Source of the DNA: Bacteroidales bacterium | GTDB taxonomy: Bacteria > Bacteroidota > Bacteroidia > Bacteroidales > P3 | Direction: 5' to 3' | DNA: 64,000 nt | Assembly (NCBI GenBank): GCA_017480785.1 | Contig: JAFURZ010000007.1 | Span: 62,001 to 126,000 of the forward strand | In this document: piece after piece, positions 24,226 to 28,837 of the stretch | Position numbering within the stretch: position 1 is the stretch's first letter | Layout of the letters: every line of letters begins with the position of its first letter | Notes under the pieces: generated by a model | Told to the model about the DNA's origin: nothing | The model's input: the letters and a program-made list of their open reading frames with translations, nothing else | The model's database searches: none | Program-made: the position numbers and the translations under genes

Positions 24226-25515
24226 ATGATTAAAACTTATCCAGACCAGAGCGCGTATGCCGCAGCGGGGCTGCCGATGCGCGAAACGAGAGTTGCCAAC
24301 ATTACGGAGGGCAACCTGACCAAGGTGGACGGCGTGAATGTCGAGAAGAATGTGGCCAGATGGGGCGACGCTATCTTTACAGACTCCACCGGCAAAAACC
24401 GCATTATCGACCGCGACACACTGAAGATGTCGCTGATACCGAGCAACTGGACCTATGTGGGCCCGTATCTGTTCCAATGGGACAATGACACGATGACTGT
24501 GTGGAAAGGCAACTACGCCAGCCTGCCGAGCTTGAAGTTTTTGGATGTGTGCCAGTATGCTATCACGGCGATCACCGGCACCTCGCTCAGCATTAACCTC
24601 AGGATGAGCCCCGACTACAGTGTGAACACCGCGGTGACCGTTACGCTGACCTCGGCCGCAATCAGCGCCGCCACCGCCCAGGAGATCAGCCAGGCTGTAG
24701 CAGCCAAAGCCACCGAGGTGGGAGACACGAAGGCGTGGTGGGCCTACCTGGCAGACGCCAACGGCAACAAGGTGGATGATGATGGAACGCAGATTATTAT
24801 CCAGTGCGACACCTGTGTGGACTACCGCTTCTACAACTGCTCTATGACGGGCGGCACCATTGCCCTTTATTCGTGGCGCGATATGCCTGCTACCGACAAC
24901 TATTGGAAGGCCAACGGGCGGCTGACGAACCACCGCGGCCTGATGCACATTGGAGGCGGCGCGAGCTATTGGGCAACCAACGGCCGCACGTTGACCGCCG
25001 CCGTAGCGGTGCACAGCGAGGCCGGCAATACCGACCCGATGAAGAAGTCGGAGTATCTGACCTCTGAATATGCCGCCGCCATCCGAGCCTATTATCCTAC
25101 GTATGAGGACTATCTGCGTGGGGAGTTCGGCGTTATGTGGCCACAGAAAAAAGGCGTTTTCGCGCTGCCTAACGGCAAGGAACTGACCGAGAAATACGGC
25201 CCGATGATGGCCCCAACGAAAGCCGGAGGAACGAAAGCAATGTATCCGGCATTGAACTGGGCCTATCTGCAGGGCGGCCACCTGTGGGACGTGGACGAAG
25301 GCACGTTAATGATGGAAGATGAGCGACTTGCAATCCTAAACGCCACGCAGCAAAAAGCCGGGAAGGTGACGTTGGGAAGCGGCACGCACCGGTGGTTTGC
25401 TGAGAGGTGCAGCGTGTACATCGCTTGGCTCTTCTACGGCACGCACCGCTCCCTCGGCAACTACTACGTGTGCCTCGCGGGTCAGGTCGGGGCGGTCACG
25501 CTTTTGAAAAAATGA
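24226..25515 (+). CDS. DGR variable protein (receptor-binding tip)
   Basis: 429 residues. The last about 42 residues are encoded by the variable repeat (VR, 25380-25505). The C-terminus around it (PALNWAYLQGGHLWDVDE, then GTHRWFAER and GQVGAVTLLKK) fits the C-type-lectin-like fold used by DGR target proteins. Sixteen VR codons differ from the template and each difference changes the amino acid. It is the last structural gene, where a tail tip that meets host receptors is expected. A hairpin follows the stop by 16 bases. Confidence 0.9.
   Translation: MIKTYPDQSAYAAAGLPMRETRVANITEGNLTKVDGVNVEKNVARWGDAIFTDSTGKNRIIDRDTLKMSLIPSNWTYVGPYLFQWDNDTMTVWKGNYASLPSLKFLDVCQYAITAITGTSLSINLRMSPDYSVNTAVTVTLTSAAISAATAQEISQAVAAKATEVGDTKAWWAYLADANGNKVDDDGTQIIIQCDTCVDYRFYNCSMTGGTIALYSWRDMPATDNYWKANGRLTNHRGLMHIGGGASYWATNGRTLTAAVAVHSEAGNTDPMKKSEYLTSEYAAAIRAYYPTYEDYLRGEFGVMWPQKKGVFALPNGKELTEKYGPMMAPTKAGGTKAMYPALNWAYLQGGHLWDVDEGTLMMEDERLAILNATQQKAGKVTLGSGTHRWFAERCSVYIAWLFYGTHRSLGNYYVCLAGQVGAVTLLKK
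25380..25505 (+). repeat. DGR variable repeat (VR)
   Basis: Aligned without gaps to the template at 26174-26299: 21 differences, all at template adenines, none at C, G or T. The 3' part TCAGGTCGGGGCGGTCACG is identical in both copies and probably holds the initiation-of-mutagenic-homing site. VR ends 8 bases before the stop codon. Confidence 0.96.
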
Positions 25516-25642: not shown

Positions 25643-26125
25643 GTGATGGCCGCACGAAAAAAGGAAGAAAAGGAAAAAAGGATGAAAACCAGAGGAAACA
25701 AGGCGAAACGAGACAAAGACAGTATCTTGGCCGACACCAAGAATTTGCTCAAAATTCTGCATCCGATAATTCAGCCGATGCCCAAGGTTGAACGCATCGA
25801 GGGTGCACCGGTGGAGATGAAGAATGCCTGCTACAATATTATCCGGTATTTCAACCAGGCCAAAGAGTGCCAGGAGGTGCGCCAGGAGAATATCCGCAGG
25901 ATGTTTGGCGAGTTCGGTGTGCTGCTGGCAGCCTTTGAACTCTGTATCAGCTATGGCTTGATAAAGGAGCACGACAGACTGGCAATAGCCGTGCAATTGG
26001 AACGGATTGAGGAAGGAGTTAGGAAATGGCGCAACGCAACGCGGTCGCCTAAGAGTCAGGACCAGCAGACGGTCACGGGCGAGGAAATGATGCCTGCAGA
26101 AGCTGCTGGCAGTTACGAAGGGTAA
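25643..26125 (+). CDS. avd: DGR accessory variability determinant (Avd)
   Basis: About 159 residues from ATG 25646 (a GTG lies just before). The start is lysine/glutamate-rich. Residues 35-140 show four helices with the features of the Avd bundle: ADTKNLLKILHPIIQPMPKVERIEGAPVEM, ACYNIIRYFNQAKECQ, VLLAAFELCISYGLIKE. Avd forms a positively charged pentameric barrel that binds the reverse transcriptase and template RNA. Position between VR and TR is the usual one. Confidence 0.88.
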   Translation: MMAARKKEEKEKRMKTRGNKAKRDKDSILADTKNLLKILHPIIQPMPKVERIEGAPVEMKNACYNIIRYFNQAKECQEVRQENIRRMFGEFGVLLAAFELCISYGLIKEHDRLAIAVQLERIEEGVRKWRNATRSPKSQDQQTVTGEEMMPAEAAGSYEG

Positions 26126-26173: not shown

Positions 26174-26299
26174 CGGCACGAACCGGTGGTTTGCTGAGAG
26201 GTACAACGTGAACAACGCTTGGATCTTCAACGGCACGAACCGCTACCTCAACAACAACAACGTGAACAACGCGAATCAGGTCGGGGCGGTCACGAATTT
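26174..26299 (+). ncRNA. DGR template repeat (TR) and template RNA
   Basis: 126 bases, no reading frame of its own. Read in VR frame it has 14 AAC/AAT codons, so nearly every mutagenised site starts from Asn, the codon that can change to the widest set without stops. The template RNA probably extends through the flanks (26126-26323), which form the rest of the gap between avd and the reverse transcriptase. Confidence 0.95.
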
Positions 26300-26323: not shown

Positions 26324-27550
26324 ATGACTGAAGAAGAGTTTTTCTCATTTTTAATCGACATAATGTTTGAAGCACGCAAAAACAAGCGCTTCGGACGGGA
26401 CTGGGCCGAGTTTGAGCGCCGATGGGCGCCGCTCCTCGTCGTAATGATGTGGGAGATGTATGAGAAAACCTATCGTGTTGACCATAACTACTCCTTTCTC
26501 ACCTCCGTGCCAAAGTGGCGCGAGATATTTGCCACCATTGCGCAAGGCCGTATGACGGACCTGGTTGTCTGCAGTCCACTGTCCCCATATATCGAGGCGA
26601 AGCTACACCCGCGGACCTTCAACAACAGGAAAAAGAAGGGTGCCACGGCGGCCATAGACCAGACGATAGAGGACATTTGCGAGGTGACACAGGGGTACAC
26701 CAAACCCGCAAGGGTTATTAAGTGGGACTTAAAAGGTTGTTTTCCCAACGCATTGTGTGACTATATCGAGCGGTGCTACTACGAAGTGATTGACGAGAAT
26801 GCCGACGACCTGATGCGGCGTTTCGGGCCCGAGATGCCCGGTTTCTTAAAATGGCTTGCAATGGTGTCGGTCCATTGCTACCCGGCACAACACTGCGAGC
26901 TGAGGACTCCAAAAATATTGTGGGAAGAGCATATTGAACCATCAAAATCTCTGTTTAACGCCGAGCCGGGAGTGGGTGTACCTATCGGCCGCCAGATATC
27001 ACAGACGGGTATGGGTTTGTATATGAACCCGGAGGTGATATGGTTAAACGAAGAGTGCGGTATCCGCTCGACGCTATTTATGGACGACTGTCTTATGGTC
27101 GTGCCGGAGGAAATGCACGAGTATGCGCTTGGTTTATTCCCGGTGTTGAGAGAACGCCTCGCAGCCAAAGGGATGCGGCTAAACGAAAAGAAGTTTTACG
27201 ACCAGCCATATCAGCACGGCTACGAGTTCCTTGGCAGTCATATAAAACCCTACCGCCTCCATATAAACAACCCAACCTATGGCAGGGCTATGGAGAGGGT
27301 GACGGAGTATAACCAAGAGCGGGAGAAGTATGCGTATATCGACCGATTTATGTCGTCGATCAACAGTTACCTGGGCCTAATGAAGACGCGCACGGACTAC
27401 CGGCGTCTCGAGCACCTTGTGGAGAGTATTGCCACCGAGTGGTGGGAATACTTTGATTATGACCAGCAGCGGCGCTGTATTAACTGCAAGCCGGAATACT
27501 CAATAAAGAGTAGATTAAACAACAAGTATCATTTACGTTTAAAAAAGTAA
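26324..27550 (+). CDS. DGR reverse transcriptase
   Basis: 408 residues. Motif A-like VIKWDLKGCFPNA holds one catalytic Asp, and FMDDCLMV is the active-site motif with the other two, with Phe replacing the usual Tyr of YxDD. The DGR-type GVPIGRQISQ (for the GxxxSQ motif) and a C-terminal thumb with GYEFLGSHIKPYRLHINN are present. It copies TR RNA with errors at A and makes the cDNA that replaces VR. No other RT-associated domain is fused. Confidence 0.94.
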   Translation: MTEEEFFSFLIDIMFEARKNKRFGRDWAEFERRWAPLLVVMMWEMYEKTYRVDHNYSFLTSVPKWREIFATIAQGRMTDLVVCSPLSPYIEAKLHPRTFNNRKKKGATAAIDQTIEDICEVTQGYTKPARVIKWDLKGCFPNALCDYIERCYYEVIDENADDLMRRFGPEMPGFLKWLAMVSVHCYPAQHCELRTPKILWEEHIEPSKSLFNAEPGVGVPIGRQISQTGMGLYMNPEVIWLNEECGIRSTLFMDDCLMVVPEEMHEYALGLFPVLRERLAAKGMRLNEKKFYDQPYQHGYEFLGSHIKPYRLHINNPTYGRAMERVTEYNQEREKYAYIDRFMSSINSYLGLMKTRTDYRRLEHLVESIATEWWEYFDYDQQRRCINCKPEYSIKSRLNNKYHLRLKK

Positions 27551-27555
27551 GAATT

Positions 27556-27810
27556 ATGACAAAGATTGAGATCCAGGAGCTCGTGAACGAGCAACAGAGC
27601 ATCATTGCCGATCGAGAGGCAAAACTGAAGGCTACCGACTATGTCGCCCTTAAAATTGCCGAGGGGAAAGCCACAAAAACACAGTATGCGGACACGCTCG
27701 CACAACGCCAGCAGTGGCGTGACGAGATAAACGCCGCACAGGCGGAGATTGAGCGCCTTCAGGCAATGGAGCCAGAAGAGCCGGAGGACAGAGAGGAGGT
27801 GGAAGCGTGA
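27556..27810 (+). CDS. small coiled-coil phage protein (84 aa)
   Basis: Predicted all-helical: IEIQELVNEQQSIIADREAKLKAT and QRQQWRDEINAAQAEIERLQ, with an acidic end. It starts 5 bases after the RT stop and its stop overlaps the methyltransferase start (GTGA). No domain recognised. Confidence 0.55.
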   Translation: MTKIEIQELVNEQQSIIADREAKLKATDYVALKIAEGKATKTQYADTLAQRQQWRDEINAAQAEIERLQAMEPEEPEDREEVEA

Positions 27811-28622
27811 AAAAGTACACAGGTGCACCCTTGCCTTTCCAGGGACAGAAGAGAAGGTTTGTCCACCAGCTCGAGGAGCTGGCCGTCCGCCTCGGGGGGG
27901 GGGGGGCTACATTTGTAGACCTCTTCGGCGGCAGTGGCTTGGTGAGCCACGTCCTTAAATACACGTGTCCGCACTGCCGGGTGGTGTATAACGACTACGA
28001 CCACTACAGCGAGCGCCTGGCAAACGTCGGACGCACCAACGAGATGCTGCGCGCCTTGCGGCCTATCGTGTCCGGCGTGACGCGTACACGGCGCATAGAC
28101 GAGCCCGTGAGGTCGCAGGTGGTGGCTGAGGTGGAGCGATGGGCCAAGAGCGGATACGTGGACTGGTTTTCACTTTCGAGCAATCTGCTGTTCACAATGA
28201 ACTACGCACACAGCCTCGAGGAGTTCGCCGGACAGACGCTATACAACCGGATACGCCAGGACGACTATAATGTGGAGGGGTATCTGGAGGGTGTAGAGGT
28301 GGTGTCGATGGACTACCGCCAGCTCTTTGATCAGTTCCGGCTGGTGTCCGATGTGGTTTTTGTGCTCGATCCGCCGTATTTATCGACGGATTGCGGTATG
28401 TACAAGAGCGACAGCTATTGGCGGCTGACGGATTATTTGGACGTTTTGAAGTGCCTGCAGGGGACGCGCTTTGTTTATTTCACAAGCTCGAAGAGTGCCA
28501 TCATTGAGCTGGCTGATTGGATGGGCCGGAACCAGGCCATCGGCAACCCGTTCGATGGTGCCAAAGTCGTCGGTGGCATTGCTCTAAACTATGACGATAT
28601 AATGCTTGTCAAAGCCATTTGA
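27807..28622 (+). CDS. D12-class DNA adenine N6-methyltransferase with in-frame G13 run
   Basis: 271 residues, GTG start overlapping the previous stop. Family motifs: PFQGQKRRF near the N-terminus, FVDLFGGSGLVSHVL (SAM binding, motif I), and VLDPPYLST (catalytic DPPY, motif IV). It methylates adenine, probably to protect phage DNA or regulate expression. Bases 27894-27906 are 13 consecutive G that encode RLGGGGAT just before motif I. The gene is in frame with 13 G. Adding or losing one G would truncate it, so it is a candidate phase-variable gene. Confidence 0.9.
   Translation: MKKYTGAPLPFQGQKRRFVHQLEELAVRLGGGGATFVDLFGGSGLVSHVLKYTCPHCRVVYNDYDHYSERLANVGRTNEMLRALRPIVSGVTRTRRIDEPVRSQVVAEVERWAKSGYVDWFSLSSNLLFTMNYAHSLEEFAGQTLYNRIRQDDYNVEGYLEGVEVVSMDYRQLFDQFRLVSDVVFVLDPPYLSTDCGMYKSDSYWRLTDYLDVLKCLQGTRFVYFTSSKSAIIELADWMGRNQAIGNPFDGAKVVGGIALNYDDIMLVKAI
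27894..27906 (+). repeat. poly-G tract (13 G) inside methyltransferase gene
   Basis: Runs of this length are prone to slipped-strand mispairing. The tract falls within the first 15% of the coding sequence, so any change of length other than a multiple of three removes the whole catalytic part. Run length from assembly alone can be off by one. Confidence 0.9.
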
Positions 28623-28646: not shown

Positions 28647-28680
28647 AGGCGTTGCGGTTGATTTGCAACGCCTTTTTTTT
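28647..28680 (+). terminator. terminator after the last phage gene
   Basis: AGGCGTTGC pairs with GCAACGCCT around GGTTGATTT, followed by seven further T. It ends the late operon. Confidence 0.9.
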
Positions 28681-28685
28681 GTGCG

Positions 28686-28742
28686 ATTTTGGGGACGTTT
28701 TTATTTCAGAATTGGAGACGATTTAATAAAAATTTGGGGACA
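28686..28742 (+). mobile_element. right end of the Mu-like prophage with three repeats
   Basis: Three related elements, TTTGGGGACG, ATTGGAGACG and TTTGGGGACA, with cores starting at 28689, 28712 and 28734, so 22-23 bases apart. Transposase-binding sites of Mu-type ends have this spacing. The last one ends in ...GGGGACA; read inward the end is TGTCCCC, as expected for a TG...CA boundary. The left end is outside the window. Confidence 0.65.
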
Positions 28743-28837
28743 TTCCAAAGCGGCGATTATAAAACAACTGCCGATGAAGCATAGCGCATAGATTAGTATG
28801 CACATCATAGAATAGAAAAAAGCGAAGTAGCTTATCT

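Follow-up and report, generated by a model that had tools for sequence, protein, structure and literature searches.

A 13-G run as a probable contingency locus in the adenine methyltransferase gene of a Mu-like Bacteroidales prophage

Within the window, as we call the whole 64-kb stretch of DNA analyzed here, a run of 13 G residues interrupts neither its gene nor its frame: it lies near the start of an intact orphan D12-class N6-adenine DNA methyltransferase gene, the final gene of a prophage carried by an uncultured gut bacterium. Judged from its sequence, the run is probably a poly-G contingency locus, at which slipped-strand mispairing would make a phage modification enzyme phase-variable. 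We establish the run, the in silico dependence of the reading frame on its length, selection on the protein, the predicted loop position of the encoded residues, and the phage context.

The methyltransferase and its 13-G run

The methyltransferase reading frame occupies positions 27807 to 28622 of the forward strand, begins with GTG, and encodes 271 amino acids. A profile search gave 29.8 bits for MethyltransfD12 (PF02086; E value of 6e-7) against a curated cut-off of 22, the protein also matched phrog_56 (E value of 1.5e-25), and the motifs PLPFQGQK, FGGSG, and DPPY were all found, with the latter two invariant in alignments of homologs. An AlphaFold model based on a 38-sequence alignment (mean pLDDT of 90) had E. 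coli Dam and phage T4 Dam as its best PDB matches; a PDB sequence search with the methyltransferase profile returned no match. Profile score, catalytic motif, and predicted Dam-like fold together place the enzyme in the D12 class. Membership in the Dam family itself was rejected, as TIGR00571 scored 20.8 bits against an NCBIfam cut-off of 114.85; the protein is thus predicted to have a Dam-like fold, yet by this test lies outside the Dam family. No restriction or specificity gene was recognized among the seven neighboring ORFs scanned.

The 13-G homopolymer, a putative slippage switch, lies at 27894 to 27906 (forward strand) in the deposited sequence, with a C on each side. It begins 87 bp into the ORF, in frame, and makes up codons 30 to 33 and the first base of codon 34; SAM motif I (FGGSG, residues 40 to 44) begins six residues past its end. 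Elsewhere in the window, on both strands, no G run exceeds six, and a first-order Markov model predicts only 0.0026 G runs and 0.0007 C runs of at least 13. When lengths from 7 to 19 G were substituted in silico between the run's own flanks, the frame was open at 7, 10, 13, 16, and 19 G (n mod 3 = 1), and every other length left a stub of 35 to 51 codons; truncation fell at 49 and 50 codons for 11 and 14 G, and at 36 and 37 codons for 12 and 15 G. The reading frame is thus intact with a long simple repeat in its 5′ portion; in silico, a change of one unit in the repeat abolishes the product, and a change of three is harmless to the frame. An earlier note on this DNA had reported a run of this length in frame just before the SAM motif of an adenine methyltransferase, readable only at 13 (or 10 or 16) G; the run is present as deposited, the protein belongs to a family of such enzymes, and the statement on lengths is right as regards the frame.

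In the model, the four glycines encoded by the run (residues 30 to 33) sit between an N-terminal helix (residues 16 to 30) and the first strand (residues 35 to 38), which leads into FGGSG. Among homologs, the loop at this site differs in both sequence and length, and it is longer in phage SuMu and at two homologous loci (L188 and L192); three to five glycines should therefore be tolerated there. Ratios of dN to dS were about 0.1 against five of seven relatives and undefined for the other two, values that are rough because dS is near saturation (for the window against L063, the dN/dS values were 0.158/1.68). At columns invariant in all other rows, the window protein showed no departure, either at the 36 such columns of an alignment with 14 homologs (A1) or at the 43 of an alignment with 37 (A2), from which L097, L153, L160, and L134, with its in-frame stop, were omitted. 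As far as sequence comparison can tell, the methyltransferase protein is under purifying selection. The idea that the gene is decaying was unsupported, given these low ratios, near-saturated as dS is, and the intact invariant columns.

The Mu-like prophage and its DGR

The methyltransferase gene stands last in a Mu-like prophage, ahead of the probable right end, a location that we take to be the "mom position," where Mu-like phages keep a DNA-modification gene. Downstream of it are a hairpin and T-run (28648 to 28680, forward strand), a probable terminator that was read by eye rather than folded and that resembles hairpins at L066, L068, and L069, and then three TTGGRGACR repeats (28689 to 28757, forward strand). 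These repeats, spaced 22 to 23 bp apart, are putative transposase sites and mark the probable right end, whose position is taken from relatives. A search of the left flank for the three right-end repeats gave no convincing match, so the length of the prophage is not fixed. Genes for a phage-type transposase and a transposition protein lie farther upstream, outside the window (in L253), and tail sheath, tape measure, and baseplate hub genes also precede the DGR; three other ORFs scanned had no match.

The DGR lies on the forward strand upstream of the methyltransferase. Its target protein (24226 to 25515, 429 amino acids, no family match) carries the 126-bp variable repeat (VR; 25380 to 25505) at its C terminus and is followed by the accessory protein Avd (25643 to 26125; phrog_3206, E value of 4e-10), the 126-bp template repeat (TR; 26174 to 26299), and the reverse transcriptase (26324 to 27550; RVT_1, E value of 1e-8; phrog_1423). 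The VR differs from the TR at 21 sites, every one of them a TR adenine. Between the reverse transcriptase and the methyltransferase is an ORF of 84 amino acids (27556 to 27810, forward strand) with no family match and no function assigned by family; its stop codon overlaps the GTG of the methyltransferase, and the two are likely to be translationally coupled. The phage origin proposed in the earlier note is borne out, with transposition genes upstream marking the phage as Mu-like. The note had further placed a DGR a few hundred bases away, varying the receptor-binding protein of the phage. The DGR is real, and its reverse transcriptase ends 344 bp upstream of the run, but the VR is 2.4 kb upstream; the target, lacking a family match, can be called a probable receptor-binding protein from its position.

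Runs in homologs and in the host family

The genome collections searched hold one genome per species, and a scan of viral_contigs for the same phage sequence found none. Relatives at 74 to 78% identity have no G run longer than six in the gene, and L012 and L013 have GGGG at the site of the 13-G run, which suggests that the run is derived, recent, and grown in this lineage. We scanned 179 homologous loci other than the window (at most 159 of them distinct, some partial), comprising 160 homologs (the best 80 of 379 and the best 80 of 245, with 146 distinct gene cores), 11 of 24 further loci (six of which repeat contigs among the 160), and eight phage records. The 13 further loci left out were the window's own (L010), repeats of contigs among the 160, and fragments. 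Inside the gene, G or C runs of at least 9 occur at just two of the 179, and SSRs are thus the exception in this enzyme family. One (L025), with prophage tail and lysis genes nearby, has an in-frame G10; the other (L100) has an in-frame C9 and DGR repeats of its own that are adenine specific (20/20), although its reverse transcriptase match of 26.5 bits is under the Pfam cut-off of 29.6. The G10 and C9 occupy two sites, both different from that of the window's run. As background, 1.36 Mb around the 160 homologs held six G or C runs of at least 9, none longer than 10, and two of these, the one at L100 among them, were in ORFs of 120 codons or more.

Several homologs showed irregularities of other kinds. 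Those at L016, L019, L028, and L031 (in G040, G036, and G031) have short extra inserts that in part carry a repeated motif, and the frames in G036 and G031 contain stops. Five ATCA copies stand 26 bp before the methyltransferase match at L162, possibly as a promoter or leader SSR, and the Faecalibacter macacae homolog (L134) has its in-frame stop near the start.

The host genome (G000) contains G runs of at least 8 as follows: 23 of length 8, eight of 9, four of 10, none of 11 or 12, and two of 13. The second run of 13, its only other run of at least 11, is at 285977 to 285989 of contig C4 (L001), just past a stop codon and, to all appearance, in an intergenic stretch. In the host family, 96 of the 189 genomes have one or more runs of 11 or longer, some of these at contig ends. 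A 13-G run within a gene is rare, though the host family makes long G runs.

For the host genus (g1), 126 runs of at least 11 were listed over 75 genomes, and 100 were fetched; those left out were the run of the window itself, that of G091, and 24 close to a contig start (within 1.4 kb). Eleven of the 100 were less than 150 bp from a contig end, leaving 89 to be scored. A first automatic scoring called two of the 100 intragenic and 87 intergenic or at a boundary, and a second called three open and coding-like, 55 open but low, and 31 without an open frame, with 11 at a contig end in both. These scorings miss Pfam-supported genes (e.g., L316), and the lower tenth of the known-gene control was 0.06. 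Inspection by eye with Pfam found about a dozen plausible genes among the 89, a tally that used frames spanning the run and so undercounts genes that are out of frame. Most of the other runs in the genus look intergenic.

Intragenic G or C runs of 9 to 13 were carried at L309, L342, L316, L371, L343, L326, L285, L034, and L065. The genes included those for a formyltransferase (L309), a hexapeptide acetyltransferase (L342), an HSDR_N protein (L057/L316), an RNA methyltransferase, an ornithine cyclodeaminase-like protein, a PglD-like protein, a DegT aminotransferase, and a type I specificity subunit, as well as an FkbM methyltransferase with G11 (L034) from another genus of the host family. Poly-G genes of this sort resemble known phase-variable classes. 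The product at L298 looks like a membrane protein and had no Pfam match. In four genomes, a family of small secreted proteins carried in-frame runs (G13, G12, and G11) and one out-of-frame G13.

In that secreted family, the members with runs (L340, L341, L346, and L353, in G072, G073, G074, and G082) have the poly-G in the signal peptide; the family is paralogous (L384 to L413) and has a match in 112 of the 189 family genomes. Many intergenic runs of the genus closely precede a similar AT-rich element, by eye, e.g., TGAAAATCAACAAGT or CTGATTATC (L305, L312, L321, L327, L328, L336, L348, L368, and L377).

The main rival to phase variation is that the run is neutral: the host lineage makes long G runs, one of these formed in a loop that tolerates it, the frame is maintained by purifying selection, and slippage is an occasional burden rather than a switch. 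The frequency of long runs in the host family and their mostly intergenic look in the genus fit such an origin, as they may arise by mutation alone, and so do the variable loop and the 177 of 179 scanned loci that lack a G or C run of at least 9. The host also encodes the mismatch-repair genes MutS1 and MutL, whose presence argues against the highest slippage rates. Against neutrality, three homologs, including that of the window, have in-frame runs at three sites where the intragenic background is low. In another phylum, an adenine methyltransferase gene of a prophage has an SSR of a different kind close to its start (PMC4996451). A run placed close to the 5′ end in the gene for a modification enzyme is the classical layout of a contingency locus. 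On balance, we regard a neutral run as unlikely, while granting it an appreciable chance. Loss of mismatch repair, considered as a cause of the run, is unsupported, with both genes present.

A second rival holds that the length of 13 is a sequencing or assembly error and that the true run is shorter or ambiguous. Long G runs are difficult for short-read sequencing, and runs in related assemblies do fall at contig ends, as did 11 of the 100 fetched runs (less than 150 bp from an end), a count made once the 24 near contig starts had been set aside. The window's run is instead internal to a 270-kb contig, and 13 is exactly a length that opens the frame of a conserved protein, as a random length would do one time in three; an error of this kind seems improbable. 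Action at the RNA level, by which polymerase or ribosome slippage would give some full-length enzyme at any DNA length and hence low, steady expression, is the least probable of all, since homopolymers can promote transcriptional slippage but the deposited frame is already open and needs no rescue.

Phase variation and its relation to known systems

Under phase variation, slipped-strand mispairing would add a G to the 13-G run or remove one as the prophage or phage DNA is replicated. At 13 G, and likewise at 10 or 16, translation would give the full adenine methyltransferase with its Dam fold; at the other lengths analyzed, the frame would be lost before SAM motif I and no enzyme would result. 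If the run does slip, methylating and non-methylating prophages would coexist in a lysogen, and a phage population would be mixed in the same way. To judge from its gene position in a Mu-like phage, the enzyme most likely serves to protect phage DNA from host restriction by methylating it. Switching would then be bet-hedging against restriction, setting protection against the cost of methylation, much as bacteria hedge with phase-variable surface genes.

The earlier note had called the gene likely phase-variable. That its frame is set by run length stands, and the comparisons favor SSR phase variation, although, as noted above, mismatch repair speaks against the fastest slippage. Phase variation is favored by the homologs with other in-frame runs, by the poly-G genes of the genus, and by published reports of a (CAAG)12 repeat and of Campylobacter phage poly-G; the title on Campylobacter polyG tracts and the Bibersteinia CAAG repeat make it likelier than the sequence alone would. 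It is weakened by the deposited copy being intact, as in a gene that does not switch, by the scarcity of runs among the scanned homologs and the intergenic look of most genus runs, and by the Bibersteinia enzyme being unexpressed in its host, with the significance of its SSR for that reason unclear to its authors (PMC4996451).

To our knowledge, the established mode in Bacteroidales is DNA inversion and poly-G contingency is unusual there; a true switch here would add slippage as a mode. Among the matches listed in a literature search, which covered titles and the starts of abstracts and few subscription journals, there was no account of this gene or of a poly-G switch in a Bacteroidales phage. 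We tentatively suggest, as a broader possibility that is still short of even, that one temperate phage combines a DGR that rewrites a probable receptor-binding protein with a poly-G switch on a possibly genome-wide adenine methylase, that methylases at the right end of such phages gained SSR switches independently several times, and that the host genus uses poly-G contingency genes.

SSR-controlled DNA methylation is familiar from the type I and III restriction-modification genes of phasevarions; the likeness lies in SSR control of methylation, whereas the window's putative switch is on an orphan phage enzyme of the D12 class. Among Mu-like phages, gene 53 of Haemophilus phage SuMu encodes a methyltransferase 37 to 38% identical to that of the window and likewise lies near the right end, adjoining a gene annotated Com. 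It differs in having no SSR by the scan thresholds, with no DGR annotated in the 4.6-kb stretch; of the Hia5-like adenine methyltransferases of Mu phages, SuMu_53 (38%) was the one compared with the window enzyme. Closer is hankyphage (Bacteroides phage p00, BK010646), which PMC12135933 describes as transposable. It has a DGR and, as its last annotated gene, a methyltransferase 48% identical. Phage p00 has no G run, and a thymidylate synthase gene precedes its methyltransferase, as it does at L068 and L100; in the window, the 84-aa ORF alone separates the reverse transcriptase from the methyltransferase, with no thymidylate synthase.

Campylobacter phages, with hypermutable polyG tracts according to the title of Sorensen et al. 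(2021, Cell Rep, cited in the review PMC11868660), resemble the window in that an SSR or poly-G tract is said to switch a phage gene; there, the gene is for a receptor-binding protein, in another bacterial phylum, and here it is for a DNA methyltransferase. A close parallel is M.Btr192IV (PMC4996451), a prophage m6A methyltransferase of Bibersteinia trehalosi whose (CAAG)12 repeat begins 63 bp after the start codon, against 87 bp in the window. Its authors call it highly similar to Hia5 and report essentially all adenines methylated when it was cloned. Compared by description, M.Btr192IV and M.Btr189ORF5700P (Hia5/M.HindVII-like) differ from the window gene in repeat (12 CAAG units rather than G13), in host (Pasteurellaceae rather than the Bacteroidales host of a Mu-like phage), and in having a promiscuous activity that was shown by cloning, where the window gene encodes a predicted enzyme; they resemble it as prophage orphan m6A methyltransferases with an SSR near the start. 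With G13, G10, and C9 in the loci described here and CAAG12 in that published case, the recurrence of different SSRs among the adenine methylases of prophages would point to a repeated benefit from turning this enzyme off.
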